From: Prostheceraeus crozeri
Lineage: Eukaryota; Platyhelminthes; Polycladida; Euryleptidae
Assembly: GCA_907163375.1 (NCBI GenBank)
Contig: CAJQUW010011301.1
Coordinates: 1 to 64,000, forward strand
Reading direction: 5' to 3'
DNA length: 64,000 nt
The notes under the pieces are model-generated. The model had not been told where the DNA came from, did no database searches, and worked only from the letters and a program-made list of their open reading frames with translations. The number at the start of each line of letters is the position of its first letter. The stretch's first letter is position 1. Of the stretch, positions 37,217-57,363 are shown piece by piece. A program made the position numbers and the translations under genes.

Positions 37217-37305
37217 TATTGCAACCATGGTAATCAAGATGACAGTCACATTGATTTTCCTTTTTACGTAGACAAACTATGCTATAAATATGAGATAGTT
37301 GTTTG

Positions 37306-37815
37306 ATGACATACATAATGATGACTAGTATCCCAACGTCGTGGGTTGTCGCAAGAGACCTTGGATATTCGTTCAAAGCTATAGAAACTGTAACAAATCT
37401 CAGTGAAAATATCAACGCTGGTGATTTAGTTGATCGACTAATGGATCTAGATGAGCATGTTATGAATCACAATTTGGATCGTAGGTGGATAGAGGATTTC
37501 TCCATGCTACACTGCAATGATAGTGAAATTAGGAGGATCAAATTGGAACGATATGGAAAGAAGGAGACATTTGACAGTGTTTTAATAAAAAGTTCTCCCA
37601 ATAAAAGTGACTTCAGAAGGAAATTAGAAGAAGAGACATTTAAATTATTATGTGAACGGAACTCCGTTAAATGTTTTAAAAAGGAACGATCCCTTCTCTT
37701 TTTACCATGTTCTCATAGCGTTATGTATTCTACATGTTATGTACCCTTTGAAACTTCATCTTGTCCCCTTTGTGATGAAGAAATATCTTCAACAGTCACT
37801 GTATATCGTGCATGA
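37306..37815 (+). CDS. UBA-like plus RING finger protein (IAP-like E3)
   Basis: About 169 residues. Start chosen at the ATG at 37306; another lies at 37318. The N-terminal ~45 residues (VVARDLGYSFKAIETV ... DLVDRLMDLDE) resemble a ubiquitin-associated domain. The C-terminal ~55 residues hold a RING finger: LLCERNSVKC, FLPCSHSVMYSTC, CPLCDEEI, ending TVTVYRA. This layout and ending closely resemble the RING tail of inhibitor-of-apoptosis proteins, which are ubiquitin ligases. No BIR domain is present. A TATA box lies at 37282-37289. Likely a captured host-interaction gene; the suppression role is inference. Confidence 0.7.
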   Translation: MTYIMMTSIPTSWVVARDLGYSFKAIETVTNLSENINAGDLVDRLMDLDEHVMNHNLDRRWIEDFSMLHCNDSEIRRIKLERYGKKETFDSVLIKSSPNKSDFRRKLEEETFKLLCERNSVKCFKKERSLLFLPCSHSVMYSTCYVPFETSSCPLCDEEISSTVTVYRA

Positions 37816-37880
37816 TGAGTCATCATGCACGTCTGTGATTGGTCACTATTGTGTCTTTGTGTGGCTTTTCTATATAAGGA
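37807..37880 (+). promoter_or_regulatory. Palindromic AP-1-like site and TATA box
   Basis: A perfect 25-nt palindrome (cgtgcatgatga g tcatcatgcacg, 37807-37831) centred on TGAGTCA, an AP-1 consensus, is followed by an inverted CCAAT (attgg, 37838-37842) and tatataagg (37871-37879). It serves the gene at 37926. The palindrome overlaps the stop codon of the preceding gene. Confidence 0.55.
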
Positions 37881-37925
37881 GGACATTGTACCGTTCTATT
37901 TCAAGCATAATTTGAGGCTAATACA

Positions 37926-38532
37926 ATGTCAATCAGCATGTCGTTCACTACCAACATTCCCATTTCAATAATTTACCGAAGTCAACTCTTCACCGGCAAT
38001 ATATTTTATTCTGCCGTATATATAACTGGCTATAAAGCGGATTTGGTGGATCTGATGGAGGAAATAGTGAAGTATTTCCGCTGCGGAGAGGACGTTGTGA
38101 GACGTAAGAGAGGACGCTCTTACGCGAGTTGCAAGATTTTGGCTCAATGAAGTATTTCGCCCACTAGCTCAAACTGAGATTGTACCGGAATACTCTCGCT
38201 GTTGCGGCAGCAGTATCCAACGGAAACACAATACATGTCTCCATGACATTATCACCTCCATATACTTTGACGAGACGGGTGAGAAATGTAAACTGGACTT
38301 GTTCATTGGACCGCCATCAGTAAGCATCAATGTGGCTGCTCAAGGACATTCTGAGGTGATCAGTTTGCGGGCATACTATGCCAATATTTTAAAGACTTTC
38401 CATTTAAAGCCCTGCTGTATGTGCTGTCCTATTTCAAAACATCTAATGAAAGACATTGAGCAGCTCATAACTGCTACAAATCAGACTCTAGCCGATGTGA
38501 GTGTGTATCAGTTTCCCTCTACAACTTGTTAA
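37926..38532 (+). pseudogene. Polinton gene of unknown function, frameshifted
   Basis: An ATG at 37926 opens a frame reading MSISMSFTTNIPISIIYRSQ through KYFRCGEDVV. Near 38100 the sense passes to another frame (EDALTRVARFWLNEVFRPL), which continues to DLFIGPPSVSINVAAQGHSE and KPCCMCCPISKHLMKD and stops at 38532. About 200 codons in all, with one frameshift. Cysteine pairs late in the protein could bind metal. Family not recognised. It is preceded by a good promoter. Confidence 0.5.
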
Positions 38533-38667
38533 GTGTTTTATGTAATTTTATAAGTACCAGCAACAAACTCTGCGTGATATGTGAATGCTTGTAAACTTTT
38601 GTGTATAATGTTGTAAGTACTAAGCAAAAATTGTAATTGTACTATCTATTTCCATATTAGAATAAAA

Positions 38668-39060
38668 ATGTCTGTAAAACGGAAGGCATCTTCTCGTCAA
38701 TCGAAACGGTCCTTCAAACCTTCAATTCAGTTTAAAAAGGCGTTGCGAAAGTTAAACAGCATACATGATAATAAGAAGAAGTGTAAATTGATTCAAAATT
38801 CAAGTGATGATTTCATTCGCGATTTAGCTTTTGCAATACACATATGTCTACCTATTTACAAGCCTCTATTAAATGCTGGCTCTTTGAATAGCATAAAAAA
38901 GTTTTCAAATCCAAGGAGTAGTGATAAGAAAAGGCGAAACTTAATTCAGCGCGGTGGTGGTGGGTTTCTAAGTATGTTAAATGATATTGGAAATAGTATT
39001 AATGGTGTAATCAATAGTCTGCTTGGAAGGATTGCAGCAACTGCCGCAATGTTAATATAA
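38668..39060 (+). CDS. Basic pX-like Polinton protein
   Basis: 130 residues with a clear ATG. The first ~100 residues are strongly basic (SVKRKASSRQSKRSFK, RSSDKKRRNLIQ), followed by a glycine run and a hydrophobic tail (RGGGGFLSMLNDIGNSINGV). This basic-then-GG-hydrophobic form occurs in small adenovirus pX-like proteins of Polintons and adintoviruses and could be a protease-processed DNA-condensing or membrane-active virion component. Assignment is by composition and motif only. Confidence 0.5.
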   Translation: MSVKRKASSRQSKRSFKPSIQFKKALRKLNSIHDNKKKCKLIQNSSDDFIRDLAFAIHICLPIYKPLLNAGSLNSIKKFSNPRSSDKKRRNLIQRGGGGFLSMLNDIGNSINGVINSLLGRIAATAAMLI

Positions 39061-39080
39061 CGTTAACGAATCATAAAGTG

Positions 39081-39130
39081 ACACGTCATCACTTTGATTG
39101 ATGAGTCATATATAGGTGTATATAAGGAAG
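39081..39130 (+). promoter_or_regulatory. TGAGTCA site and double TATA box
   Basis: acgtcatcac (39082), gatgagtcat (TGAGTCA at 39102-39108) and tatataggtgtatataagg (39108-39126) lie 85-130 bp before the ATG at 39212. The same site combination precedes the gene at 37926. Confidence 0.5.
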
Positions 39131-39211
39131 ATGCTTTAATGATATTTCATCACTTTCAAGTGACAATTCATTTGCGCTGGTTGAAAACTCCGAATTAGTA
39201 CTTGTTGAAAC

Positions 39212-39874
39212 ATGACTCAGAAAATGTATTCAATCAGAGAGGAAAGTGACGCTTTTGAGCAAAATTTCTTGAAGCTTCGTCCGACACGAAAGGTGCAAGG
39301 GATTGAAAATACATTCTACTTTCAAACCTTGAATTATGGTGATGATCGCTTTTATCTTCAAGTTCAATTCTTCCACAGTAATGGCATGTCTACATCAGGG
39401 TATAGCAATATGAGACAAATGCGAGTGACTTTTCCAAAATGGCAACAGGTGATTCTTAAAACTATTGACTCTTTCGCGAAAGAATGTGTTGAGCTGCCTG
39501 AAAGTGCTCCTACTCATTGGAGAAAGGCATTTTAGGAAGGAGTTGGTTACAAGGAATTGCCGGAATTCGATACACTGTTTTTAACACTATCGGATCATTT
39601 TCAAGCATTCGATCTCTTTACAAACGCGATGGAATGTGAGGTTCTCAAACGGGGCCGCTATATGGGCTTATTGCACGTTACCGGACTTTATATTGGCTCA
39701 CATGGTTCGACTGGTAAAGTCGCATCTTTACAAATGGAGGTTCTTCAACTAGTCTATGAACCACTACCAATTGATGAATGCTTAATTAACATTGATAAGA
39801 CTGCTTCAAGTGATGGGAAGGAAGAGAGCAAAAAAAGCGAGGGCGGAAATATAAAGATGGGAATCCTAAATTGA
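39212..39874 (+). pseudogene. Polinton gene of unknown function, in-frame TAG
   Basis: 221 codons from a clear ATG, interrupted once by TAG (39533-39535) between HWRKAF and EGVGYKELPEFDTLFLTL. The text on both sides is coherent and in one frame. The first half contains NTFYFQTLNYGDDRFYLQVQ and MRVTFPKWQQVILKTIDSFA; the second half ends in a Lys/Glu/Ser-rich tail. Either a nonsense mutation or, less likely, readthrough. Not recognised. It lies just before the packaging ATPase. Confidence 0.55.
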
Positions 39875-40073
39875 AGTTGAAGCGCCAAGATGCTGACTTG
39901 AAAACTTTCTATAATCCTAATTGTGATGAGGAAACACAAATGTTTTAATTTGTAAATGTAACTTGAAAGTTTCTATTCTGAATGTAAATAAACGTGATCT
40001 GGAACATGTGTCTGCTTTGTTGTTCTAAGCAAAATTAGCGGGATGATGAGTTTAATGTTAATGGAATTATAAG

Positions 40074-40709
40074 ATGACAGATTTTGTTCTATTCACTGAT
40101 CGCACAATGTGTGTCGCTGGACCAAGTCAGTCCGGTAAAAATACATTTGTAACTGAATTGCTACAATATAGAAATGAAATGTTTAACAAGGAAATTAAGA
40201 GAGTCAAATGGTATTATGGAATATTTCAACCACAACTACATTCGGCACTTCGCCAGAAAGGTTATGAGGTGAAGCAAGGGTTGCCATCAACTGAGGATAT
40301 CAAAGCAGATGACTTACTAGTATTAGGTGATCTATTACGTGAAAGCAAATCTTCAAAGGATATAACTGAAATGTTCATTCAAACTACACATCATAGGGAA
40401 GCTTTTATTATCTACATCACCCAAAACATCTTCGATGGAGGGAAAGAGCAAAGAACTAGAAGTTTGAATACACATTATTTCGCAATATTTAAAAATCCAA
40501 AAGATAGCAGTCAGATATATCATCTCAGTAGACAGATATTACCTCAACAACCTAAAGTACTTTCAAAAATATATGAAGATGTAACAAAGAAACCACATGG
40601 CTATCTATTTATTGATCTAACCCAGGAATGTCCGGAACGACTTCGATTTCGAACAAATATCATACCTAATTCCGCTGAACCAATGACAGTTTTCTCGGTT
40701 CACAGTTAG
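40074..40709 (+). CDS. Genome-packaging ATPase (FtsK/HerA, A32-like)
   Basis: 211 residues, intact. The Walker A motif is at residues 15-24 (AGPSQSGKNT), in the form typical of Polinton ATPases. The Walker B candidate is DDLLVLGDLL (about 79-88), where one of the usual paired acidic residues appears as Gly. A Gln/Asn-bearing sensor region follows (IIYITQNIF) and then the region RSLNTHYFAIFKNP. These proteins pump DNA into preformed capsids. It precedes the conserved gene at 40719. Confidence 0.88.
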   Translation: MTDFVLFTDRTMCVAGPSQSGKNTFVTELLQYRNEMFNKEIKRVKWYYGIFQPQLHSALRQKGYEVKQGLPSTEDIKADDLLVLGDLLRESKSSKDITEMFIQTTHHREAFIIYITQNIFDGGKEQRTRSLNTHYFAIFKNPKDSSQIYHLSRQILPQQPKVLSKIYEDVTKKPHGYLFIDLTQECPERLRFRTNIIPNSAEPMTVFSVHS

Positions 40710-40718
40710 TTTTAAGCA

Positions 40719-41399
40719 ATGTACTTTGTTGCCTTATTATTTTCAAACATGTCGTATTCAAAGATGGTAGTCATTCCTCAAGAGGAGTATGTACAATGGA
40801 CTACATTACAAAGTGCACAGGAAGTCAAAAATATAGATCAACATATTACGAATCAACTTAAGGAACTAACTCAAAAGGATATGGAAATTAAGAAGATTAA
40901 GGATCCCTATCGACGACTGCAGTTAGCAGCTGAAAACATTGATGAGAGGCGACAGATTCGTGACAAGTTGCGACGATTTATAACCTTTTCAACACCTCGA
41001 CCATATCGTGTGCGCGCTGAGCGATTATTTGACTTCATTGATCCACATGTGATGTTCAATGAGAGAGGGGAGATAATAGATGAAACAACTGGTGATGTTA
41101 TTAGAAATAGTCACATAGATGACCTTCTACAATATGCTGTCAGAGATGTAAGGCGAAAACTAGGTGCACCAAAATGGTGGACATGTTTTCAGAAAATTTT
41201 ATCTGATCAAAATGTACCTCACAATATTATTGGAGGACCGACTGTGAATGAGTTGGAAAAGGGTCACTTACAAGATGGATTAAAAAGTAAAACACCCACG
41301 ATGGCGGTCAAGCGAGAGCTTCATGATCCCGATGATCTGCAACCAAAAAGAGCTACTAGGCGCTCAATGCGCGTTGCGAAGGAGTATAGTAAATATTAA
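40719..41399 (+). CDS. Conserved Polinton protein, probable virion component
   Basis: 226 residues from the first ATG, but ATGs at 40749 and 40764 are equally good, the last giving MVVIPQEEYVQW, the form I would expect. Charged helical N-terminal half (KELTQKDMEIKKIKDPYRRL), then RPYRVRAERLFDFIDP, FNERGEIID and IDDLLQYAVRDVRRKLGAPK. The basic C-terminus is KRATRRSMRVAKEY. Proteins of this pattern recur between ATPase and integrase in Polintons of marine animals; function is not established. Intact here. Confidence 0.65.
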   Translation: MYFVALLFSNMSYSKMVVIPQEEYVQWTTLQSAQEVKNIDQHITNQLKELTQKDMEIKKIKDPYRRLQLAAENIDERRQIRDKLRRFITFSTPRPYRVRAERLFDFIDPHVMFNERGEIIDETTGDVIRNSHIDDLLQYAVRDVRRKLGAPKWWTCFQKILSDQNVPHNIIGGPTVNELEKGHLQDGLKSKTPTMAVKRELHDPDDLQPKRATRRSMRVAKEYSKY

Positions 41400-41564
41400 G
41401 CAAATATGAATTAAGCCTTGCCTCTCATATCATGTCGTTACAAAAATTTTGCTGTTGTTTGAAATCTGCGCTCGAAGGCAAAGGAGAAGAGGGCGTAGAG
41501 GTTGATATCAATTGTGTTGGCAGTTTCTGTGCGAGTAACACGCGTGTAAATCAGAACAAAGACG

Positions 41565-42651
41565 ATGAGTACAGCAGTGAAACTCAGAAAGATTTATTAC
41601 GACTTAAATCACCCCGCAAGTTTCAGTCGTCCGGAGGTTCTAGCCCGTGCAGCAGGTGTGGGAATAGAGAAAGTCAAGAAGTGGTTAAGGAGTCAACCGA
41701 CTTAAACTCTTCACAAAAATGCGAGAAAGCGGTTTCCAACGAGAAAATATGTTGTTAACAATATAGATAGTCAATGGCAGGCGGCCTTGGCTGACATGCA
41801 ACAGATATCACAGTACAATGATGGCTATAAATACATCTTAACAGTTATAGATATTTTATCTCGCTATGCTTGGGCACGTCCACTGAAATCTAAACGAGGA
41901 CCAGAAGTTGAAGCGGCTTTTCAGAGCATTTTCGATGAGGGGCGTGTTCCGCAAAGAATACAGACAGATCAAGGGAAGGAATTCGAAAACTCTCATGTTC
42001 GAAGTCTCCTTAAAAGTCATAATGTGGAATTGTTTAGTGTCAAAAGTGCTTATAAAGCTGCCATGGTTGAGAGGTTCAATCGCACACTGAAGACAAAAAT
42101 ATGGCCCTATTTCACTGCAAAAAATACACATGTTTGGGTAGGTCAGCTGCAGAAATTTGTTAAGAATTACAATGAAAGCTACCATCGAATCATCAAGATG
42201 AAACCAGTTGATGTTACCCCAGATAATGCGATGGATGTATGGCTTCGATTGTATGATAAGAAAGCGAAAAACATTTCCAATGAAAAGAAAATTAATGTTG
42301 GTGATTAAGTTCGGATTTCAAAGGTTAAGTCTACATTTGAGAAGGGGTATCTAGCTAATTGGACTGAAGAAGATTTTTTTGTAGATGAAGTAAATACAAA
42401 ATTCAGACCCACCATGTATAAATTAATAGTTACCATGGCAATTAATTGAAGGAAAATTTTACTCTTATGAATTGCAAGTATTAGACAGAAGTGAAGAGGT
42501 GTATATGATTGACAAAATAATTAGGAGGAAAGGTCATGGCAATCAAAGGAAATATGTAGTTAAATGGAAAGGATATCCTGATTCATTCAATAGCTGGATA
42601 ACGCACCAGGATCTACAAAATGTGGAGGTGGGAGACACTCGTAACTTTTAA
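41565..42651 (+). pseudogene. Polinton integrase with chromodomain, broken
   Basis: From an ATG at 41565: N-terminal helical region (KLRKIYYDLNHPASFSRPEV), in-frame TAA at 41703-41705, then the retroviral-type catalytic core with ADMQQISQYNDGYKYILTVI (first Asp), RIQTDQGKEFEN (second Asp) and AAMVERFNRTLKTKI (Glu). A second TAA at 42306 follows INVGD, where the SH3-like region RISKVKSTFEKGY continues. At least one frameshift near 42420-42460 precedes a chromodomain (RKYVVKWKGYPDSFNSWI) ending at 42651. It would insert the element DNA with 6-bp staggered cuts. Two stops and a frameshift disable it. Confidence 0.88.
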
Positions 42652-42691
42652 ACTAATGTAGCATGTGACTTCTTCCATATATGAGTTTTAC

Positions 42692-44195
42692 ATGTCTACT
42701 AACTTCAACATCATTCTTCCAAGCAATTGCAACCCAGAGGTATTCCCAAGTAACAAACCATCTCTATACTCTGTTGAATTCGCTAATCCAATTACTCTGC
42801 CTGGACCCCATGAAGTTGCTCTAACTGAAATTACTTATTACAACGATATCAGTTTGCAAAAAAACAATTATTTTGAATTACATAAAGAAGTACGAGAGAA
42901 GGATGATTGTTTTCGCATATTTCACAATAGTCTACATGGTACATGGGCTTTTCATCATCTTACTTTACATCTTTTTTCAACATCTTTACCATCTGTCCAA
43001 AACATGATTAAAATTCAAAAGGCATTTGCAACGTCAATTTTTGATTCTAAGGTTCCCTCAATGAGCTTGCAAGATACAGAAAAGGAAATCGGTAAAATGT
43101 TTGAACGAATAAATGATCTCTTCAAGCTGACTTTGAATAAATTCTACAAACCAGTCATAAAGGGGTCAACAAATTGATGAAGGAAGGGAAGCATGTTCTT
43201 CTTGTATTAGGTAAGGATTTGAGTCATACTTTTGGGTATTCCAGAACAACTTTCTCATCAAGGTATTGGTACAATGGACGTAGGCGGAATTCGGAGAGGA
43301 AAGTCACTGATTTTCAATGTAGAATTGTGCCATTGTATTCATTACAAAAAAGGAGCATCCGAGTAAAAAATCAATTTGAGGTCATTAGAAGTGTTGAAGA
43401 CTTTGCAAGAAAGTTTCAAGGATCAGTGCCAGAAACGTTAATGACTTGTGAATACAAGAAAGAGAAAGTAACTTTATGTTATTGAATTCGGATCTGAAAT
43501 GATTGGGATGTTTAAGGGCCTTGAAAGCGCACCTTGGTTGACAGAATTAAATGATACATTCAAGGTTGAATTGGCCTCTTCTAAACTCAAAGCATCAACA
43601 AATGTTTCATGGGATATCCACGTATACAGCGAAGACATATTGGGCGATGATTTGTCTACTTCCAGTGAACTTGTAAAAAGAGTTAATTTGAACATTGAAA
43701 GCTTGAAAACGCCATCTGAATTGTGTACAAAGTTAAATGAGTTTGGTGTAGATTACCTTGATGCAGATGAATATCACTTTTCTTATGATCCATAAGAAAC
43801 GCATGATTCTAAAGGTAGGGAAGAACTCACTTATCAAGCTGGATAGCGTGTTAACGACCACATTGGGATTCTCAAAATCAACTATTTATGAAAGCACATC
43901 AATAGGCGATACAGCCCCATCACTAGAGCGTGATATAAGTAACTTATACGTCTATTGTAACATTATTGAATATACAAGGGTTGGCGACATTGAGGCCCCA
44001 CTTCTGCGCACATTTCCTCTCTCATCCGTAAGGAAGCAACTAATCAATCGAGAATTTTTTAACAAAATGTATCTACCAATCAGCCAAAATTGCATCAATA
44101 GAACTGACATATCAATTCATAATGACGCAGGAGAAGTAGTACCGTTCTGTGGTGGTGTTACTGTTTTGTCCCTACATATTAGGTCACGAGAATAA
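42692..44195 (+). pseudogene. Minor capsid (penton-like) protein, frameshifted
   Basis: ATG at 42692. It opens MSTNFNIILPSNCNPEVFPS and continues with ITLPGPHEVALTEITYYNDI, the N-terminal pattern of Polinton penton/minor capsid proteins. The frame changes near 43175, 43490 and 43770. Middle parts include FGYSRTTFSSRYWYNGRR. The C-terminal segment (43758-44195) has NLYVYCNIIEYTRVGD, PLLRTFPLSS and a final VTVLSLHIRSRE, matching the family's ending. It would form the capsid vertices as a single jelly-roll protein. Three or more frameshifts make it non-functional here. Confidence 0.75.
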
Positions 44196-44238
44196 GGCTT
44201 TACGCTACTGTGACTTCCATAGTTACTCAATAGTCATA

Positions 44239-44721
44239 ATGACAGGCATTTACAGTAGACCATCATATCAGAGCGGTTATCCCGTGTTTGTTGGAGGTAG
44301 ACGACAAGTTGGAGGAGGCATATTTGGTGCACTAAGACGTATGGTTCTTCCAACACTCAAAAAGTATGGCGTACCAATCATGAAGCGTGTTGGAAGAAGG
44401 GCTTTAGATTTTGGTGCAAATGTTGCAGCTGATGCGCTTCAAGGTGAGGATATCGGTGAATCTATGAAAATGCGCGCGCAGCAATCTGCCATAGACGCAT
44501 TAGATGATTTAACAAAGACGAGACGTACAGTTCGGAAGAAGCGTAGGAAGTCAAGACAAGTTGGATGCGGTCGAGTTACTAAGCAAAGACGCAGGAAAAG
44601 TAAAAAGCCGACTAGAGCAGTACGTTCTAAATTTAGACGTCGAGTGAAAACAAGAAAGCGCAAACGAAATTCCACAGCGACTAGAAACAAGTCAAAACGA
44701 AGTAAGATAACATATTTGTAG
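44239..44721 (+). CDS. Basic glycine-motif virion/core-like protein
   Basis: 160 residues from the ATG at 44239. The N-terminal third holds RRQVGGGIFGALRRMVLPTL, a possible adenain-type processing site followed by an amphipathic helix. The middle has RALDFGANVAADALQGED, and the C-terminal third is almost continuous Arg/Lys. This resembles adenovirus pVI/pVII-like core or membrane-lytic precursors in layout. The role is inferred from composition and position between penton and major capsid. Intact. Confidence 0.6.
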   Translation: MTGIYSRPSYQSGYPVFVGGRRQVGGGIFGALRRMVLPTLKKYGVPIMKRVGRRALDFGANVAADALQGEDIGESMKMRAQQSAIDALDDLTKTRRTVRKKRRKSRQVGCGRVTKQRRRKSKKPTRAVRSKFRRRVKTRKRKRNSTATRNKSKRSKITYL

Positions 44722-44731
44722 AGCTAATACG

Positions 44732-46009
44732 ATGCAGAGTATCAATTCGGCTTTGTGTTTCTTCGATTCTCCCCCTCATCAGACAGACATCATCTCCTCA
44801 ACAATTATAGTCCCCACAACAAATATCGATGGTAACCAACAGCCTATTCAGTTTGATATACCTGCCAATCCTCAAGATTATATTGACTGTCAATCCATTG
44901 ATTTGGAGTTGTGCATACAAATTAAGAAGACTGATGGTACAAATATTGATTCATCCAAGGATAAAGTGGGATTAGCAAATCTTACTATTGACAGTCTGTT
45001 CTCAGATGTGTATCTAATATTGAATGACAAACAGATTGAAGGAGGGGATCGAGCATATCCATATCGAGCATACATACATACAATGACGCAATTTCAAAAG
45101 CAAGCTAAACAGTCACACTTGCAAGTTTCTGGGTGGTATGATGATCAGCAAGGGAAATTTGATGATGTCTCAAATGCAGGGTCAAAAAGACGAATGGATT
45201 TAACAGCGGATTCAAGGGAATTATACTTGAAAGGACCTGTCTATCTTGATTTCCTTCGTCAATCTAGATATCTGCTATCACAGGTTAAAATGCAAATAAA
45301 ATTTATTCGTGCAAATCCTGAGTTCGCGTTAATGGCTTTTGGAGCTACAAACTATCAAGTCAACATAAGTAATGCCGTGCTCAATGTAAGGCGAGTAACA
45401 ATGAACCCGTCAGTCATCAACGAGCATGCGACAGGATTGAGGAAAAACAATGCAATATATCCAGTTAATCACAGTGTGTTGACAAACTTCACAATTGGTG
45501 CGGTATCATCCTCACATGCCTACCCAAATCTTTTTCCTACTGCAATGCCAAAGGCGGTGTATATCACATTTGTGGAAAATGAGACATTCATTGCTGCTTT
45601 TGAAAAGAATCCATTCAATTTCCAACACTTTAATGTTAGCAAACTAGCACTCTACCAGGATGGGAAATTTGTATCTTGCAAAGCATATAAGCCTAATTTC
45701 AAAGATGGTAAATTCGCACGTGAATATGGTTCTACTTTCACCGCCCTCAACATGTTTAATACATATGATTCAAATGGAATTACAATGGATATGTACAAGA
45801 ATGGATACTTCTTCATTATGTACAACCTCACAGCAGATGCAGATCTAGGTGGTGAAAGTGTAGGAGTTACAAAGCCTGGAAATCTACGACTGGAGGTATC
45901 ATTTGAGTCACCTTTGAAGAAAACGATTACTTGTCTCATTTATGCTATCTATGATAGCAAAGTTGAGATAACAAGAATGAGAGACGTGACTGTCAGCTAT
46001 CAGAGATGA
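44732..46009 (+). CDS. Major capsid protein, double jelly-roll
   Basis: 425 residues, uninterrupted. It begins MQSINSALCFFDSPPHQTDI, a form characteristic of Polinton major capsid (hexon-like) proteins, with FSDVYLILNDKQIEGGDRAY, KGPVYLDFLRQSRYLLSQVK and AYPNLFPTAMPKAVYITFVE further in, and the C-terminal LRLEVSFESPLKKTITCLIY. It would trimerise into capsomers of an icosahedral shell. Its stop overlaps the protease start (ATGA at 46006-46009). One of the best-preserved genes of the element. Confidence 0.9.
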   Translation: MQSINSALCFFDSPPHQTDIISSTIIVPTTNIDGNQQPIQFDIPANPQDYIDCQSIDLELCIQIKKTDGTNIDSSKDKVGLANLTIDSLFSDVYLILNDKQIEGGDRAYPYRAYIHTMTQFQKQAKQSHLQVSGWYDDQQGKFDDVSNAGSKRRMDLTADSRELYLKGPVYLDFLRQSRYLLSQVKMQIKFIRANPEFALMAFGATNYQVNISNAVLNVRRVTMNPSVINEHATGLRKNNAIYPVNHSVLTNFTIGAVSSSHAYPNLFPTAMPKAVYITFVENETFIAAFEKNPFNFQHFNVSKLALYQDGKFVSCKAYKPNFKDGKFAREYGSTFTALNMFNTYDSNGITMDMYKNGYFFIMYNLTADADLGGESVGVTKPGNLRLEVSFESPLKKTITCLIYAIYDSKVEITRMRDVTVSYQR

Positions 46010-46471
46010 GTAACTTAAGCAACATAGAAATCTTGAGGAAAATGAGGAAAGCCCATCCCTACTCCAAGACAATATTTCTCAATGTCTTTTCTAGAGATAA
46101 TTTACCTGATTCAATTCCGTTCTATCCTTGTTCGCTTATTATCAATACGGATACCAACAATCTTCCCGGAAAACATTGGATTGCTATATACATCAAATCG
46201 TTATCAAGTGGCCGAATATTTTGACTCTCTTAATCAACCTCGTTTACATGATATCGCATTATGGATGAACAGGTTCTCCTGGACTGTTAGGAAAGTGACA
46301 TCGTTCCCACTTCAAAGTAATACATCTCTAATGTGCGGTGGCTATGTACTCTATTTTCTCAACGAGAGACCATTGAAAAATAACTGTAAAAGTGCTTTAG
46401 AACTATTTTCAAAAGACTGTGATAAAAATGATGTAATTCTTACTAAATATGTCGAAACATTTTTTAAATAA
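46006..46471 (+). pseudogene. Adenain-like cysteine protease, frameshifted
   Basis: The start codon overlaps the capsid stop (ATGA). The first frame carries the catalytic His in LPGKHWIAIY, then breaks near 46185-46200. The other frame continues with VAEYFDSLNQP (acidic partner), FPLQSNTSLMCGGYVLYFL (Gln and nucleophilic Cys) and ends at 46471. About 155 codons, short but normal for this group. It would process virion precursors. An AATAAA overlaps the stop (46467-46472). One frameshift between His and Asp disables it. Confidence 0.82.
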
Positions 46472-46578
46472 AGTTTTATGTTGTATCATTAACTTGCTCT
46501 CTTTTTTCCAAAACAAGGGTTTATAAGGAAAACAAAAACATGTTCATATTTTATTATCTATTCACATATATATAAAAT

Positions 46579-47509
46579 CTACAATTTGGTTTTCATGAAA
46601 CATTTTTTCAAATCACATATGATTGGAGGCACATCACTTATGTCTTTAATGCCAGTTATTACAATCTTTCCATTATGGAACACATGAACATGATATGGAT
46701 GCCAGTTAGTTAATTGAGCTGCTGGAAATAACTCCACTTCATAAGTTAGATTATGTGATGATGTAACTTTACGGAAGTCATAGTGATAGTGCAATTCACA
46801 TAACACGGTCATTGTCTTCACTTTCCAATCAGATAATGAATCACCAAGTAAATGTTCCAAAGTGAAGTGTAGATATGTGAGATCACCCTTCATGACCCTT
46901 CCAATACATGGGATTGTTCCATTTGGAAAGAATAGGATAGTGAGAGATTTATCCTTCCTCTGAATCCTCCATGTTAACATTGAGGGTCTTCCAAGATGTA
47001 AGCTCGTTGTCGGATTCAATTTCCGTTTTATCAGCAACCATTGTTTTCGGTTGGGTATATTCCTCTCGATCTCTTGTAGATTGAGTTTTGAGTTTACTTT
47101 TGTAGTTAACATCCGATTTACAACTTCCAACCGTTTGATGTCCTCCATCTTTAATGAATGACGTTATCTGTGGTAGTATCTCCCTTGTAAAGGTTTCCCA
47201 TGTGACGTCACTGAAACCAAAAAATCGATATTCAACATCTTCCCGTTTTGGTGAACAGACGTATAGTTTCACTGATGAATCACACTTTATCCATACCTTG
47301 TCATCGAGAGGAATCTTGATCCGAGTTTTATGGTTGCCAATGAGATCAGCAAAGTCTTTCAGTGAAGGCATTGAGTCAATACTAATGCAAACGCCACGAT
47401 GTTTTCGAACACTATTTGCTATTGAATGACGAAATGCTATTCTTTTAGAATTTGTTATGTGAACGTTTTGAACGTCACTAAGTTTCCATGTTCTAATGTA
47501 ATGAGGCAT
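46579..47509 (-). pseudogene. Polinton protein with TBP-like C-terminal domain
   Basis: Two minus-strand frames overlap. The first (47509-46949) begins MPHYIRTWKLSDVQNVHITN and contains VWIKCDSSVKLYVCSPKRED. The second (ending 46579) contains KSLTILFFPNGTIPCIG and then YEVELFPAAQLTNWHPYHVH with FHNGKIVITGIKD. The last block closely follows the TATA-binding protein repeat pattern (Y-E-x-E-L-F-P ... F-x-x-G-K-[IV]-V-x-T-G-x-K). The join near 46955 reads as one gene with a frameshift, although two overlapping genes are possible. A role in transcription initiation of the element is inference. Confidence 0.6.
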
Positions 47510-47945
47510 GTTCCGAAAGCTATGTTTGAAATTTAGGTTTAATGTTTGCCTAAAGTTTGTTATTTTATTAGCTCAGCATATCGGAATGATGTTGAGTACA
47601 AATTCTTCACATATTCATTGACATTAGGACTACCTATTTATTAGTAATCATTTCTACATATCGGAAAGATGTAGAAATTTCAATTATAGTAAGACTACTT
47701 ATGTATTAGTAGGTGTTGCTACATGTCGGAAGATGCAGCAATCGCAAGATCTATTACAAGTGGAATATTATATTGTTTTTGTTTAGACTTATTCTACATC
47801 ACCTGTGACAGGAAGGCATCTCCTTCTCTTCGACGGTGGGGGAAGACCTAGGCTGTAGTGTCCATATGGTAATGATAAATTTCTATCCAGCCAACAGCGC
47901 TTATCCTCTCAAAGTGAAAGACCTCGCTTCCTAAATGATTTTGTG

Positions 47946-50900
47946 CTAACTATGTGATTTTTTTGAATTTATAATTGTCATATCTTCAGTTGTATCATTC
48001 TCACTATAATACACACTCCTATGGTCATTATGTTTCAATTTTTTAACTGCTGCTCTTTGAATTCCTTTTGCACGTTTGATGCTATGATTCGTAGAGTCTA
48101 GATATTTCATTGAATACATTTTCGGTTTTAGTAGGATCATTTCCTCAAGCAACTTTCCAGCACACACATCTTTAAAACAACCTAATCTAGCTTTGTTTGT
48201 AGTTAAGTATAGTCGGTGATGACTGTCATAGTTTGAAGAGTCAAACTTTTCACCGAAGTATAGAAGTATATCTTCCAGACGGACAGATGGTGATGTGTAT
48301 AAACATAGGATGAAACTGTCGGTATCACCTCCACAAAGCTGCGTTCTATTTATCAGTGGACATCCTTTTAGATCTTAGTAATATAATTGATACATTTCCA
48401 ACTTACTATAGTCAAGTACTGCCTGACCAACATATATTAATTTATTTAAAACTATTGAAGGTTTGTACATTTCCATACCAACCAGATCTTCATCAAATAT
48501 TTTGTGTTGAACATAGAGAGGATGATTTGACAATTTCAGTAGTTGTTTCTCATTGTTGACTAGTTTAAATTTTTTCCTTCTCCTTACATTTTCCATTGTT
48601 TTACCATATAAAGAATTATTTTTCAATTTGTAGAATGACTTTTCGAAGTCAGTGCTTGATTGAGCCGTCTTTTGAGAGTTTATATCAATGTATGTTTTTA
48701 ACCAAGGCTTTTGTGTGAATTTTATGCCACTATGAATCTTCTTGATTCTCATGGCCATGGTCAAGTAAAATTTTAAAGTTGAGTAGTGGACTACATAATT
48801 TCCCTATCAAATTGATGGACCAGAAGTTTCCTGATAGACGAAAAATGTGTATTTGGTCTTACTTTTTCATATAGATTTTTCATATAGTGTGAAAACATTC
48901 TCTTTTCAATCATCTGCATTTCTGGAGCTAATGGGAAATCGGCAGTGTCATCATGAATGGCTTCAGGATACTCTAAATCAAAATAAAAAATGTAGCCGAT
49001 TTCACCATCATCATCTATATTTTGAACATTTTCTTCATTTAAAAAAATTATCTAATTCACTTTCATTCAACCATTTGAAATTTGAGTGGGGTAGATTCCT
49101 ACTAAGTGAGGAACCGTAAAGGTTATTGACATCTAAGTAGGCCAAGTGTCGACTTTCATGTGTATTATTTCCTAATTCGTCAATGCGTGCACGCGCTCGG
49201 TGAATGTTGGTGAAAGTGATACCCCCTCTAATTCCTCGTTCAAATAGATTGTACATATTTTCATCTTGTATGTAGTGTGGGGGATCATTGGAAGAGAAAT
49301 TTAGTGCTGAGGTAAAGCTAAGATGTGGGAGACTAACAAAATGTACAGGGTCGATTTCTTCCTCACGTTGACTCAATGCTCTAAACACTTCAATTATGTC
49401 TGCCAACAATAAAACATCTAACTTAAAATATGCCAGGATGTAATCACCAAATGTGCTACAATTAAATTCAATCCATGCCTTGTTAGCGTGTTCATATTCA
49501 CTATCGGAACAGTGCTCACGAGTAAGATCATTATAGAATTCAAATTGTGGTGGTAGACAGTCTTCCATCAACGTGTTTAAGTTTTTGAAGTATGAATATG
49601 GAAACACTCCCTTCTGATATAAAACATTATCACTTAATTGTGGAAATTCTACCCTTAATGTCTCTACATGCTCATACGTTTGCAAGCCCTTGGCTAATTC
49701 ACTCAAGGATGCACTTAGAAATTGATATGAGTATAAGAATTTGAGTTTAAAGTATACTGTCTTCTCTTTGTATTCAATTACAGGGACACTGGCGGATAAA
49801 GTTATATATTTTTCAGCAGTTGCTGCTACAACATCTAATTTCCAAGATTTCATTCTTCCAATCGCTTTATAGCAAACGATGTGACTGTCATGATTTTTAA
49901 AATTGTGGAAAAATATGGGGAGCTCCCGTCTGTTAAGTCTTAACCGGAGATTGCATTTCCTACATAATGTTTGCCTATATTGCCTCATGATCACGAACTT
50001 TTATGACTTCATCGCTGAATTTCGATTTACATTTGTTGCAACATTCTGCATTCTCATGGCTTGCTTTTTCATCCGCTGACAGTGTCATTGGCTGCCTAGT
50101 TATTGCACATTGGTTGTCATATAAGTCTTGGGCTACAGTTTCAAAGTGGTGCAAGAAACTAATAATGCAATTTTCTCCCTCAAAGAGGTAATACTTGTTT
50201 TCAAATTTCGATTGAAGGGCATTATGCCAGACATGATAAGCTCCAATGGCCGCAGGTTTATGTATTTTATTATCAATGTAGCACTCTATATCTGCATAAA
50301 TTACTAAAAGAGGACTCAGTTGATATTCCATGCTACTTGTTAGTACTTTTAGATCTGACGGCATTTTTTCTATTTGTGCTTTTCCTCGAATGCAAAACTG
50401 GAAGTGTTGGTCTAGTGTTGTCTTATATGTGAATGACTGAGTGCATCTTTCGCAGAAGTATTTATGTCTTTTTAAAGTTCTCCTATACAATCTTGACAGC
50501 TTAGGAATTCCACAATAGTGTGCTGCTCCATTGTTTAGAATTAGCAAAATATTAACCGTTTGCCTACCAGTGAAGTTACTATTGTAACGAACACCTTTGA
50601 GTCCATTTTCATAAAAGTGAATGTTAATTTTAATATCATTATTTTTCTCAAATTTTGGAATATCTTTGATTGATACTGGTGTGGAAATGCCTTCCATATT
50701 TAGCTCAGATGTCCACTTACTATATGATTTTACTTCATTCCTTGAATAAGGTACTTCATTATAATGCAATATTGATAAAACTGAATGTAGGAAGCAATCG
50801 TTTGCATTTGAATTAACATTAATGACAGCTCTAGAGTTTTTTAACTTCTTTGGTAGAGGAAATGATTGTCCACCTGACAGTATTGGACTTGTTATTGCAT

Positions 50901-51633
50901 TAAACTCTATATTTTGTAATTCATCTATAATCCAATTGCTACCCTTTTTGTGAAGGCTTCAATATGATTTATTAGACTATTTAGATGATCCTGAAACCAA
51001 GCATCATAGTCATAAATATAGTTTGAGGATGATGAGGTAAAGTGTGCAAGAAAAGTTTCTTCTTCTTGAGGATTAGAACGGACATATCGAATTTTTGCAA
51101 TCAGACGACCGCGCAATTGATAGCTCCTTAGTAAGTCAGACACTAAATTCCCTAACATGGAAAGCATGCTTTCTAAGAATGATGTTATGTCCAAAGTAGG
51201 TGTTGTTGGCGTGATATCATATACACGTGCATGGCCATTGAGTGCGCTTTCGCTGAGACTAACAGTTCCATAGTTATTATGCATATTCATCTCACTATTT
51301 GTATTATGTACATTCATATGCTGCCGAAATCTACTTATAGAGTTATACGTTTTGCCACACCGAGAGCAGTATTGCATAAAGTTTTGTATGTTAGTTGAAG
51401 CGCTGGTTGTTGGCTTAGAAATTTCTATTTTGATTATTTGAATTTGACTCTGTTATGCTATCATTCGGTTTGTTATTGCATATAAGTTTATGCCTCTTAG
51501 GATTATCTATCCTATTCGTCTTATATGGACACTTGCTACATTGATACGTTTTTCCTAACTTACAAAATTTTTCATGACGTTGCAAATTGCCTATGAGAGT
51601 GAACACTTTTCCACACTTGGTACAGACAACCAT
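47946..51633 (-). pseudogene. Protein-primed type B DNA polymerase, multiply broken
   Basis: Minus strand, about 1230 codons. N-terminal zinc fingers: CTKCGKVFTLIGNLQRHEKF (51630 on), CSKCPYKTNRIDNPKRHKLI and CSRCGKTYNSISRFRQHMNV. Then NWIIDELQNIEFNAI, an exonuclease motif with VIYADIECYID, FFHNFKNHDSHIV and YFKLDVLLLADI. Polymerase motif A is YLDVNNLYGSSLSRNLP, motif B is KLKNNSLYGKTMENVRR, motif C is GGDTDSFIL near 48320, and the C-terminal part has LLKPKMYSMKYL. Lesions: frameshifts near 51420, 50935, 49985, 49050 and 48805, and a TAA at 48375-48377. It would replicate the element. Confidence 0.9.
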
Positions 51634-51663
51634 GATTATTGTTGAGGATTGAAATTAGCAAGC

Positions 51664-51713
51664 CCTTTATATACATCTATCATCCTATGACGTCAACGTT
51701 ATCACTAGCCAAT
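51664..51713 (-). promoter_or_regulatory. Polymerase promoter: TATA, CRE, CCAAT
   Basis: Reading on the minus strand towards the polymerase start at 51633: a CCAAT box (ccaat on the plus strand at 51709-51713), a palindromic tgacgtca (51688-51695, a CRE consensus) and tatataaag (51673-51665). Same design as the plus-strand promoters of the element. Confidence 0.5.
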
Positions 51714-51888
51714 AGCTTATGTTCCCATCTGATGCAAAGAGAAAACATAAAATGTTTGATAATTTCTTTTTCCTAAATGAAGAAAGATAAAAGTTAAAGT
51801 TTGGCACACTTTACAATACCGCTGTGATTCAGCTTCAAATGACTGCATCCTTTTGTGCAGACGCTGAAATCGTTCATGTGAGTCAGTC

Positions 51889-53940
51889 TCACTTTACATT
51901 GTTCATGCACTCAATGTGAATTAAAGTTTCCTTTTCATGAATACGGCTGTTTGAAACCTGGGAGGCCAACAGGAGATTGGATTGTGTTAGGTTCCTCACA
52001 GATTCAATTAAGCCTCTGTTCTCCTCCTTCATTTTCTTCTCCCGCTCCTCTGCTTGCTGTAGGCGCTCCTGGCAGAGACGCAACTTGGTCTGTATATCCT
52101 CTTCTGTCGAGGTTGCGTCCAAGTCGACGTTATAATCCCGCACTGGGAGAGGAGCCGTCACATCCGACGTTGGTAGAGCTGCAACTGGGGGAGGTGTTGT
52201 GGGAAGTAGTACCGGGGAGGAAGGAGCTGCACCTGGCGTCGGTATTGGTTTCGGAGGAGATACCGGCGAGGGAAGACGCACGGGGGATGATGGAGCCAAG
52301 CAGATCATTGGGGACGGCGGCAGGCGGACACTCCAGCTCGGGGATGCCCGGATGTTACTGAAGGAGACCTCCTGTAATGCATGCATCACGGAGTCCTGTA
52401 ATCGAAAAGAAACAATTGTTTATGAACTATTTACAATTGTTAACATTTATCAAAATTAAAATTAACACTATGTAAATTCGATTACATAAATTAAAATTAA
52501 CTTGTTGACATTTATTAACTCCAAATGTGAATTTCTCATACCTTCAGCTCGATTGTCCTTCGATTGGATCCACCTTCATCCTCCGAAAGAACCATCGAAT
52601 CATTCTAGAAGATAAATCGATCTATTGCAGATTAATAAACTTATACTCAAGTGGGTTTCTAAATTATAATGGAAAAATTCTCTGCTCATGCATTCATCTA
52701 AGCATTATACTTACATTTGCAACCGAATTATCGGATGAGGATGTTAGAGACGACGTGGTGGAGACGTCATCAGATGATGAGGAATCCTCGGACGTTGATG
52801 AATCGCCCGATGATTCATGAATGGAGTAGGGCCTCTCCTCGTTATCCTCTATTGATGTGGTGGTCGCCGGCGTAGACAGAAAACTCCGCTGACGTCTCTT
52901 AAGGGACAAAGATCGTACAGCCTGCAGCGAAAATGTGATAATATTTTTTATAACGAAATAGATATTAATGAGAATTAATATAGACATGGGCTATATACAT
53001 GTACAGTTTTTTTCCAGATATTGTTGTCTCATATCAAATCGTAGACCATGAAAATCACACTTACAGGGCTTGAGATGGTTTTCTTTTCCGGCGAATTCAA
53101 TCGAGGTACTGCAGGATACCTTTGGACACTTGGAAACAGCTGAAAATAGAAATTCATGTTCAATTTCACATTAAGAAGTAACAAGCAAATTAATTTCTTA
53201 CCTTTCGCAAGTTTTCCACCGCATTATTGTCTTCGAAACTGACTTTCGGCGGTCGAGGCACCTCAGACTGAAATATTTATGAAATATTGATTTAATTTAT
53301 GCACACGATTACTAACCTGAGTAAATAGAATCTCACATCTTTAACGACCAGTTTCTTCTGCACCAACACCTTGGCTTTCTTCGGTGGGGGCATCACCATG
53401 TCCTGAAATGTGTTAACAAAAAATTTATTTTAGTCTAAAGGAAGTAGTACTTTTTGTCAACTGTGAGTCAGCTGTCCGTTCAAGTTAGCATTTAGAATTG
53501 ACTGCACTTACCTTAAAATCACTCAGAGTCTCATCAATAAATTCTCGAGACTTGGGGATTTTCTTAGGTACTCGGGACTTGGGGGCTTTCTTTGCCTCAG
53601 GCTCGTCCACCTGTGAGAGCACGCCTTCAGTCGGCCTTTCTTTGGCAAATAGCCTCTCCAATTTCTTTTTCTCTGCCTTGGAGGTAAGGTTGATGCCTTT
53701 CCGGCCATTCTGTTGGGCACAGGGTGTATGTTTGGCAATAAAGGCCTTTGCTGAGTCGCTGTTTACCTTGTCGTTGCTCCTCTCATATGTCTTGCGGATT
53801 AAGCAATAGAGGTACGTGAAATCCTGTTTGAATATGCAGTCTTTGTGACCACTCTTGTTGGCATGTCGAACAGGCAGTCGGCATGTGTCACAGTAGTGAA
53901 AGATCAGCCGTTGTCGCCCAAAGCTTTCATGTCGGAACAT
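51889..53940 (-). CDS. Seven-exon gene of unknown function inside the Polinton
   Basis: Exons (minus): 53940-53512, 53402-53337, 53267-53202, 53139-53065, 52921-52715, 52604-52542, 52395-51889. Every intron has GT at its start and AG at its end, and every exon is a multiple of 3 (429, 66, 66, 75, 207, 63, 507 nt), so all six introns are phase 0. The product is 470 residues without a stop. The N-terminus has a zinc-knuckle-like CDTCRLPVRHANKSGHKDC. The middle is Lys/Pro-rich and then Ser/acidic (SSSSDDVSTTSSLTSSS). The last exon has a proline-rich stretch and a coiled coil (about residues 410-450). A further acceptor (tttttttcctatatag) just before the ATG suggests a 5' untranslated exon. Looks nuclear and regulatory; family unrecognised. 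Confidence 0.75.
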
Positions 53941-55750
53941 TTCTATATAGGAAAAAAAATTGATTATAATTTAATCTCTTATTAAACGAGAAGTCATTTA
54001 TACACCATCAACAAAGCTCTATTAAGTGCTACTTTCATATTTGAGAAATCTGAGAAAGAAATAAAATTTGAAGTTGAAATTGAAACCGAAAGTCGAAAAT
54101 TAGATATTTATTCGAAAAGGGGTTGCTCATAAGAAGAGTTGAAATTTGGAAATAACTGATTTACAATTATTTAATTTCGAAATTAATATAATGGAATTAA
54201 AGTGAAATTTCGAAAATATCAACCACTGCTCAATTTGTTTAATTAAACAAGCTTGAATTTTATGGAAGCAGCTGATTTATATTTATTTAATTTGAAATAA
54301 ATATAATGGAATGAAAGTGAGATTTCGAAAAAGTTAAACCGTTACTCAATTTGTTTAATTAAACAAATTTGAATTTTTTTCTTTAGAAACAATGTGTGAA
54401 AATACGGATGTCAATTGCACTTTTATTTTGACTTATACAGTCATGTCTCTTCTGGATGATTTAATATAGAAAGAAAATAAAAAAAATATATGGTTAATAA
54501 TGTAACATAAAGTGTTCCTATCCTAAAACCCAAGCTTCTATATTTAAAGCTATTTGGTCATAAGAACTTAATAATGTTCCTACTCCCGAATATCCTATAA
54601 AGTAGCACAACATGGCAATGAAACTAACTTCAGAATTGTAGTATGAATCGGAGAACGTGAGGAATGGAGAACGACGACTGCTATGAACACTGAATAATTC
54701 AAAAATGAGTAAAGATCTGATGTGTACAAGTTCTTTATAAAAGAAATTGACAAAGCAACTATGAACAAAGACTTTATGACATCACATCATCGCATTTGTA
54801 CAGTTAAACAAAATTGATAACTCAAACAAGAATTGGAACAGCTGGTTTATTTTTAACCTTAGAAATGCAAGTGCATCATATGTGTTGAAAGATTTCTACA
54901 TGTAAACAGTAGAGTGAATTCAAAGTAATATGAACTGATGGACTGATATATTATTTTGATATACATGTTATTATTAATAGTCATATAATGATTCATATTT
55001 GAAGATATAAAACGTGTGATTTGAATAGAACATTAAAATTTGAATTAAGAGCTAAATTTCAAAAATTCAAATTTCGCGCCAAAATTCGAATAATGAAATT
55101 AAAATACTAGGGTTAGGAAAGAAAAAAAGGTAGCTATGGCACCCGGACCCCATGGGGCGCTACGCGCACTCGAAAAATTATTTACCCTATAATCCGAAAA
55201 ATTTCGAGGGCGCGAAGCGCCCGAGAAATTTTGAGCCGCCCCTCCGTGTATGAAGTGTATGAAGGTCAAAGGTCAAGGTCAAGTGTAGAGGTTTGTATAT
55301 TATGGTCATTTTTAGTTGTAAACCTTTAACTTTGAAAATTTGTAAACTTAGTCATTTTTGTAAAAAAACTTGGAATTTTTCAAGTTGCATACAGATGCAT
55401 ACAACTAGGATTTTGTCATCAAATGGGTACATACAATATATCATTCGAATGCTCTTTTCATTCTGATTCTAATGGTGTATTGTATGACACATGTATATTA
55501 TATAACTAGAGAGCTACATACCTTTAAAGAATGGGCTAAAAATTTAGTGATTTTAAAAATCTAACATTTGTCTGCTTGCATACAGTTGCATACAACTAGG
55601 ATTTTCCCATCGAATAGGTACATACCTTATATTATTCCAATGGTCTTTTCATTCTCATTCTTATGGTGTCGTGTATGACACATGTATGATATCATCCTGG
55701 ACTGCTACAAGCATTTTAAAATTAACAACATAACTGTTTCTTTAAAAGTT
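53941..55750. other. Intergenic Polinton segment with hairpins and a duplicated unit
   Basis: No frame of note. A TATA-like ttttataaag on the minus strand near 54740 could belong to the seven-exon gene. A GC-rich stem (gggcgc gaa gcgccc, about 55208-55222) sits in AT-rich sequence after a ccccatgggg palindrome. A unit of about 120 bp (gcatacaactaggattttgtc... to gacacatgtat) at 55386-55497 is repeated at 55582-55690. Confidence 0.45.
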
Positions 55751-55949
55751 ATATGTTCCTATTTATTTCAGGTTGAAGTCTTCATATTTGATTTTTTTGT
55801 TTCAATTCAGTTATTGAACATCATTAATTGTAGATAGTTATTCCCCTTTCCCATTCAGACCTTAATTGAAGACCGATTTGTGAAATGATAAAACAAGTCT
55901 GTTCATATATACAAATGAATATTAAATGAAGAGATTAAAAAAAAGCACA

Positions 55950-56416
55950 CTAAATGTCATCAAGGTAAGGAAAGGGTACAAGTTTTTTCAAGTCCACTTG
56001 CGCATGGATCCTGGTCTTTTTGGGCGCACAGGGACAGCGACGTGGTGTGTCAAGGTCGATGATGGAAAATTCGAGAGCGGTTGTGAGGTTCCACTCGTTC
56101 GGCTCCATTCGCATGAAGACCCGTTTGGTGTGGTACTTCTTCGGCGCGTTCTTTACTTTTACAGTAACCCTTCCATATAGTGGCGTTCTCATGGACTTTT
56201 ATTCATGTGCCGCATCGTCTCGATTGATACGTCACTATCATCACTCGAGTAGTCGGGCGATGCAAGGGCTTGGGTGAACACCACCGGCTCGTTTGGTGTT
56301 GTAGATCGCTCCATCGGAGATTGGGGAGGTGTATTGGTACATTCCATTGGCGATTGAGGTGAAGTGGTACGATCAGCAGTACCGTTCTCAACTGCAGCTT
56401 CCTGTTTGCGATCCAT
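55950..56416 (-). pseudogene. Polinton right-end gene A, copy 2, frameshifted
   Basis: The counterpart of 235-657. ATG at 56416. The first ~72 residues match copy 1, with a small insertion that duplicates part of the TTSPQSPME region, then one base is lost near 56198. The second half (MRTPLYGRVTVKVKNAPKKY to LVPFPYLDDI) follows in another frame. Its C-terminus is the unshifted version, longer than in copy 1. The two copies therefore carry different single-base lesions in the same gene. Confidence 0.65.
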
Positions 56417-56637
56417 AATGACTTCTAGATTTAAAATAATTGTAACTTGTAAATGTGAGAATTAGAACCTTTGATAAGAATTGGTACAAACCTCGGACTT
56501 ATATACTTTTAAACAAAGGAAATCCTAACAGCCAATCAGAGAGGTACCGAACTTCCCTAAAGACTATATAACTATATAAAGGATGTCATTGTTCCAAACT
56601 GTTAAGTACTTATCCTCCACGTTCCATAACAAGAAGC

Positions 56638-56926
56638 ATGTCCTCAAAACCTTTATTATATTTTCAAAATGACAGCCAAGTCATTATGGGAGGTCAGTTG
56701 GATATGACCGTGCATCTCTGTTGCGGCTGCAGTGGCCTTATGGAAAACCTTGACTGTGTCAGCACTTCAAAGGCGGAGTGGACTACCAGTGAAGTGTTCG
56801 GTACAAAAGTGTGAGCATGACTTCACCAACAATCAGACATTTCATCAATGGTGTGATGACTTCCTAAAGATCATGGAGTCGCCTGAGGGACGTGATCTGT
56901 ACCCATCATTTATTTTTCATGCTTAA
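56638..56926 (+). pseudogene. Polinton right-end gene B, copy 2, frameshifted
   Basis: The counterpart of 886-1176, with the same start context (aagaagcatgtcc). A 2-base deletion near 56731, within the CGC motif region, throws the frame. From about 56732 the original frame resumes with ALWKTLTVSALQRRSGL and ends SFIFHA. Confidence 0.65.
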
Positions 56927-57063
56927 ATTAAACTTACACTGTAAATCTCTTGTCTTTTTCACTTTAAACATAGTTCTGGAATTGGTTTTCCTATTGGGGA
57001 GCAACTAAATCATAACTGCACATTAAAGTTTCGCATCTAAATAGTGCTACATTTAAAATAATT

Positions 57064-57363
57064 GTCACAATAGTCGCAATTGAGCAAACCCATTCAAAAT
57101 CAAACAACGGACGTCTATCGGTACGTACCCAAGTACTCAGAACCAAGTCACACAAGTTCGATCATAGACGTTCCGAAACGCAATGTACTCAACCCAGTCT
57201 ACCAAACACATGTACCTATCCAGTAAAACAGATGTCATACATGTTCCTATTCATAACACTGAATTATACATGTACCTATCCATGTTCCTATTGATAACAC
57301 TAAATTTTACATGTACCCATCCATGTACCTATCCCTCGCAAGTAGGGCACAGTTTTCGCTACT
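57064..57363 (+). repeat. Polinton right terminal inverted repeat, 300 bp
   Basis: The reverse complement of the left repeat (34572-34704 plus 37050-37216). Its outer half contains degenerate iterations of tacatgtacctatccatgttcctattgataacact. The terminus is agttttcgctact, one base different from the left end. A direct cacctc duplication follows at 57364-57369. Confidence 0.92.

Follow-up and report, generated by a model that had tools for sequence, protein, structure and literature searches.

The genome of the flatworm Prostheceraeus crozeri contains a Polinton that appears to carry a gene of seven exons. Such a gene could be a chance chain of open reading frames, the property of another transposon, a captured host gene or a standing part of the Polinton itself, and we asked which of these it is and what its product might do (general background in PMC6431247, available to us in part). 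Throughout, the window is the whole 64,000-nucleotide stretch of DNA that was analysed. A preliminary description, made from its letters, had placed seven minus-strand exons between 53940 and 51889, with six GT–AG introns in phase 0 and 470 codons free of internal stops, and all of this was borne out.

The surrounding element has the features of a Polinton. Its terminal inverted repeats (TIRs) are bounded by a 6 bp target duplication, CACCTC, at 34566–34571 and 57364–57369, and Pfam searches recognized an rve integrase (PF00665, E 2.1e-13) and a Polinton-type DNA polymerase, PolB (DNA_pol_B_2, PF03175, E 1.3e-12), which has its own TATA box at 51673. The insertion is young, since the TIRs differ at only 2 of ∼304 positions. 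Open reading frames at 40062–40706, 42662–46006 and 46046–46468 produced nothing above the Pfam cut-offs; they are candidates for a packaging ATPase, capsid proteins and an adenain-like protease. No relatives of the PolB, the integrase, the TBP-like frame or a 432-aa capsid-like frame were found in IMG/VR. The left end of the element is AGTAGT, the commonest end motif among vertebrate Mavericks in the available text of PMC8097293, and the likeness to those elements extends to TIRs, a 6 bp target duplication, PolB, integrase and extra genes beside the core.

Several other features were observed in the window. A 2.3 kb reverse-transcriptase element (34705–37046, plus strand) sits in the left TIR, whose halves overlap by 3 bp, and just interior to that TIR is a RING-finger frame (37294–37812, plus strand; PF13920, E 8.3e-08). 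Near the right TIR, 55951–56415 (minus strand) holds a short accessory gene or gene pair, with two reading frames overlapping at ATGA and a TATATAA box at 56505. Other transposon genes lie at 13566–14885 (plus strand; DDE_Tnp_1_7, E 3.5e-54) and 3145–5043 (minus strand; Transposase_21, E 2.5e-07).

Table 1. Positions in the window of the Polinton, the seven-exon gene and associated features.
Feature	Position	Strand	Remarks
Polinton/Maverick element	34572..57363	.	22.8 kb; TIRs, target duplication, integrase, DNA_pol_B_2
Left TIR	34572..37220	+	two parts, 34572–34704 and 37047–37220, with insert between
TBP-like protein gene	46582..47163	-	PF00352 E 1.2e-12; PDB TBPs E 1e-4
PolB gene	47949..51633	-	several frames in window copy; adjoins spliced gene downstream
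Exchange block	51700..54200	-	classes A and B differ between near-identical flanks; pairwise alignments
Exon 7	51889..52395	-	507 nt including stop; Pro-rich and heptad (coiled-coil-like) region; premature end, Cys/His tail absent here
Exon 6	52542..52604	-	63 nt; exon most different between A and B, 29% aa identity
Exon 5	52715..52921	-	207 nt; Ser/acidic, variable length
Exon 4	53065..53139	-	75 nt
Exon 3	53202..53267	-	66 nt
Exon 2	53337..53402	-	66 nt; PPPKKAKV, NLS-like by eye
Exon 1	53512..53940	-	429 nt; N-terminal Cys/His domain and basic stretch
TATAAA box	53997..54002	-	62 nt upstream of start codon
Right TIR	57060..57363	-	inverted repeat comparison

Within the window, GC content is 50% in the exons and 21–33% in the introns. 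The splice sites are of mixed strength, the donors ranking among the best 0.03–3% of all GT, and the acceptors among the best 1–17% of all AG, on the minus strand. A scorer of splice-site and open-frame chains assigned 40.8 to the 2.6 kb gene region, whereas none of 100 dinucleotide shuffles exceeded 12.4, and two of 96 window stretches outscored it, one as a one-exon and the other as a two-exon open frame. Because the scorer chained only exons 1, 4 and 5 and most of exon 7, to which it added a spurious last exon, support for the short exons comes from the comparison of copies described below. The introns are indeed all in phase 0, but this is less striking than the preliminary description had supposed, the expectation being 0.5^6, or ∼0.016, if half of introns are in phase 0.

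That description had also held the spliced gene to be intact while other genes of the element are broken. This does not hold: the window copy is without one conserved Cys, the last of a CxxC pair in exon 1, which all six other full-length database relatives possess, and a short deletion close to the 3′ end has cost it the C-terminal Cys/His tail. Selection on the window copy after insertion is unsupported, as the copy is damaged and little decay would be expected with the TIRs differing at so few sites. A tandem duplication of ∼116 bp lies upstream of the gene, at 54147–54377, where most other regions align as though they had a single unit.

We then turned to the rest of the genome (2.05 Gb in 14,165 contigs). 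Exon 1 was found at at least 150 places, these being the best 150 of 1,935 first-look candidates, and in 131 of the 150 it has no internal stop. Around other copies, 20 regions, each 9.9 kb long at most, were fetched. Homology is continuous into PolB in all 20, although in L022 this amounts to only ∼50 nt before a rearrangement, and 15 of them extend to the right TIR (57,320 or beyond). The five that fall short comprise L010, which overlaps the L011 array, L013, which meets a contig end, L019, which meets the edge of the region, and L022 and L025, which are rearranged or truncated. The gene thus belongs to the Polinton family as a regular constituent and not to a nested element, a possibility that the preliminary description had entertained. 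In some copies the gene region forms tandem arrays within the Polinton: L010/L011 (C5869) has three copies of exon 1 repeated every 3,911 bp, and L019 (C9165) has two, 2,160 bp apart.

The copies most like that of the window, which we call class A, were compared in 35 rows from L009–L048, representing 34 different genes (one is covered by both L010 and L011). Among mapped sites, the donor is GT at 200 of 209 and the acceptor AG at 192 of 207. Exon lengths are kept in most rows: 429 nt for exon 1 in 35/35 rows, 66 nt for exon 2 in 33/35 and for exon 3 in 31/34, 75 nt for exon 4 in 33/35 and 63 nt for exon 6 in 32/35, with exon 5 a multiple of three in 27/35. Exon 7 reads ∼35 codons further, to a Cys/His tail of pattern C-x3-C-x-H...H...C, in 24 of 33 rows, and nine are without it. 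Open copies encode 502–506 aa, and the window product is thus a shortened version. Decay is widespread: of 22 rows in which every exon could be mapped, only five are free of internal stops under the class-A model.

Substitutions were analysed in exons 1–4 and 6, using the 30 of 35 rows that are clean (five with odd exon lengths were left out) and the window; merging of identical sequences left 30 distinct ones and 435 pairs. The pooled dN/dS was 0.255 (jackknife SE 0.036), with values of 0.184 for exon 1 and 0.456 for exons 2–4 and 6; mean divergence in introns 1, 3 and 5 was 2.7, 5.0 and 3.8%. We conclude that the spliced gene has been under purifying selection and is resident within a high-copy Polinton family. 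A chance chain of open frames is ruled out by the shuffle scores, the splice sites across copies and dN/dS.

From N- to C-terminus, the product comprises a Cys/His domain, a basic stretch resembling an NLS, a Ser/acidic segment, a Pro-rich segment and a heptad region whose periodicity was equalled by 0.2% of 5000 shuffles. The preliminary description did not recognize it, and it had no significant match in Pfam or PDB sequences; searches of these and of PHROGs gave sub-threshold matches only and no recognisable DNA-binding fold, leucine-zipper matches (E 0.12) were at chance level, and no catalogued Pfam zinc-finger family exceeded its cut-off for exon 1. The whole 470-aa product had no relatives in the protein database. 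Exon 1 alone retrieved eight unnamed relatives, 59–91% identical, of which six are full length and two are fragments, and a profile search returned the same eight. The full-length relatives share the pattern CxxC...H...HxxC...CxxC...HxxC. In seven of the eight, E-V-S at the end of exon 1 is followed by 5–8 residues, as expected from read-through into a GTAAGT donor; P0003 goes out of frame earlier. No relatives of exon 1 were found in IMG/VR, GTDB genome contigs or INPHARED.

In the same genome, at least four classes of exon-1 sequence can be told apart, here named A–D. Class A accounts for 142 of the best 150 places, at 87–100% identity to the window exon, and the other eight belong to class B; class B itself takes all 150 of its best 150, at 95–100% to L030. 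Class C occupies 135 of the best 150 places at 82–90% to P0003, with the remainder at 72–79%, and class D all 150 at 85–100% to P0006. These counts are lower bounds, because each covers the best 150 places only, and our knowledge of C and D comes from exon 1, whereas A and B were compared over the whole gene. In class D, 12 places match P0006 without a difference over 150 aa, and 34 rows share a single score at 85%, which may be signs of recent bursts. P0006 may itself come from the same species, because it is identical to those 12 places, and the database relatives are accordingly not all independent of this genome.

Class B retains all six intron positions and phases. Five of eight copies follow the plan 432/69/66/66/219/63 plus exon 7, all with GT–AG borders and exons 1–6 open; the remaining three deviate at one, two and three exons, and exon 7 is in frame to the tail in three of the eight. 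The divergence between classes is deep: comparing L013 (class A) with L030 and L032 (class B), protein identity is 82% in exon 1, 65–66% in exon 7, 41–45% in exon 3 and 29% in exon 6, and with pN at 0.20–0.21 and pS at 0.70–0.71, synonymous sites are saturated.

This divergence is limited to a block that includes the gene. L028 and L026 combine class B with a window-like backbone, and their flanks are 98–99% identical to those of class A. Between L013 and L028, differences number 8 of 351 sites on the PolB side, 664 of 2317 in the block and 4 of 691 upstream; between L013 and L026, in which the 3′ end of the gene is also lost, they number 8/350, 567/2036 and 11/691 respectively. In the A–A control L013–L009 the corresponding figures are 5/351, 47/2477 and 8/691, and three A–A controls gave 1–6 of 351 on the PolB side, 40–50 of 2460–2477 in the block and 6–22 of 683–691 upstream. 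One border of the block, near 51.70 kb, falls between the end of the spliced gene and the TATA box of PolB; the other, near 54.2 kb, is upstream of the gene's own TATA box and gradual across ∼300 bp. The converse arrangement is seen in L027, whose backbone has diverged (36/350 and 65/679 from L028; 32/350 and 65/679 from L013), although the class-B blocks of L027 and L028 are close, with only 136 differences in 2362 sites. PolB flanks were measurable in seven of the eight class-B copies, which are those most like class A and not a random sample: six are 96–97% identical to the window and L027 is 88%.

Right-end DNA of the L027 type (type 2) occurs at at least 40 places, L027 included. At two of these, C10291 and C10706, exon 1 of class A lies 2.8 and 3.2 kb away and is oriented alike (the distance in L027 being 2.6 kb); 37 L027-type places have no neighbour among the class-A and class-B places listed, and one of these 37, C6024, has an exon-1 neighbour of unassigned class among the places listed for P0003. 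All four combinations of backbone and class are thus present, namely type 1 with A (the window and others), type 1 with B (L026, L028), type 2 with B (L027) and, by position only, type 2 with A (C10291, C10706), a pattern that normally points to recombination. Backbones have traded the A and B versions as a block, and the saturated A/B divergence between flanks differing by ∼1–2% shows that Polinton genomes recombine by modules.

What, then, might the gene do? On balance, we favour the view that this resident accessory gene encodes a host-spliced nuclear regulator and passes as a cassette from one Polinton lineage to another. Transcription from the TATA box by host Pol II is likely, because in 33 of 34 class-A and seven of eight class-B rows TATAAA precedes the start codon by 60–63 nt, and the host spliceosome would then remove the six introns. 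Exons 2, 3, 4 and 6, together with exon 5 in most copies, have lengths divisible by three and are bounded by phase-0 introns, so that skipping any of them keeps the frame, and isoforms may arise in this way. The product would enter the nucleus by its basic NLS-like stretch and dimerise by the C-terminal coiled coil, leaving the N- and C-terminal Cys/His modules and the Ser/acidic and Pro-rich middle to regulate transcription of the element, in a manner resembling that of early regulators in small DNA viruses. Polintons replicating together would recombine and so trade versions of the gene. As no DNA-binding fold was recognisable, we infer this regulatory role from composition, the NLS-like motif and position.

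Adenoviruses, which likewise have a protein-primed PolB, encode early regulators of the E1A type; these are spliced and combine zinc-binding with acidic and proline-rich parts. The Polinton product would share this make-up, although the exon plan differs and the likeness is one of description, not of sequence comparison. A second parallel, also by description and not by sequence, is with the ‘Ziftr’ early-region zinc-finger genes of an adomavirus from a clam dataset and of some adintoviruses (PMC11071296), which lie in the non-structural region of related viral genomes and are Cys/His-rich predicted regulators; the available part of that account describes them without splicing or exchange.

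A different function is conceivable and should be kept tentatively in mind. The product could be a counter-defence or host-interaction factor that would block silencing or an antiviral pathway in the host, in which case an arms race would keep the deep classes in being. Two deep classes between near-identical flanks and the low A/B identity of exons 6 and 3 would be in keeping with this, as would the accessory regions that adjoin Polinton core modules in vertebrates, according to the part of PMC8097293 available; yet dN/dS within class A is below 1 in both exon sets, and no similarity to a known inhibitor appeared in the libraries searched. By analogy with the repressor/operator pairs of temperate phages, the gene might instead be a compatibility or immunity locus at which each class acts only with its own class, a proposal that we regard as rather doubtful. 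Were it true, the elements of one genome would fall into self-regulating groups, and exchange of the block would let an element escape repression or become compatible.

As to origin, an intron-bearing host gene could have been taken up as DNA and carried as cargo. Spliceosomal introns are unusual in Polintons, and nematode Mavericks do bear the cargo genes wosp and krma (PMC10680173, in the portion available), which likewise are extra genes carried by Mavericks. Those, however, belong to host gene families, whereas the spliced gene had no cellular relative in the searches made, and none of the 20 flanked regions held a copy outside Polinton DNA. The searches cover the best 150 places per query, and a host gene present in one copy may lie beyond them. 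Any capture must be old, since both of the anciently diverged classes share the six introns and lie within elements, and we consider it quite unlikely that capture explains the gene. That a nested transposon brought its own gene into the Polinton is extremely improbable, for despite the tandem repeats in some copies (the 3.9 kb unit of L010/L011, and L019), the sequence continues into PolB and the right TIR as described, no inverted repeat of ≥ 14 nt lies on both sides of the gene, and the ends and target duplication of the Polinton stand far outside it.

The same element encodes a TBP-like protein of 189 aa. Its frame is open in all four other copies fetched (L049:679–1248, L050:670–1239 and L051:679–1248, all on the minus strand, and L052:947–1516 on the plus strand), with PF00352 at E 4.3e-11 in L051; no paper title in the Polinton and TBP literature surveyed names such a protein. 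A second frame of 186–193 aa, at 46952–47572 on the minus strand, shares ∼200 nt with the start of the TBP-like gene. It has no Pfam match and is shorter in L049, and it may be a true overlapping gene because it is open in the other three copies (L050, L051, L052).

In intact vertebrate Mavericks no introns were observed, and the accessory regions lie on the flanks of the core (PMC8097293, available text); here, a gene with six GT–AG introns exists in deep classes that have been swapped. The absence of introns is reported for vertebrate elements and is not part of the definition of a Polinton, and the window element departs from it. Polinton-like viruses have introns of another kind, the self-splicing group I introns (PMC12220804, available part). 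Among the titles and abstract openings surveyed, a partial coverage that is not proof of absence, none names a gene of several spliced exons as a conserved Polinton component. The conserved multi-exon gene thus contrasts with the intronless state of intact vertebrate Mavericks, as far as the available text of PMC8097293 describes them, and the modular recombination of these Polintons resembles that of viruses meeting in one cell. With a spliced gene and a TBP-like protein encoded by the same element, the control of Polinton genes becomes testable.
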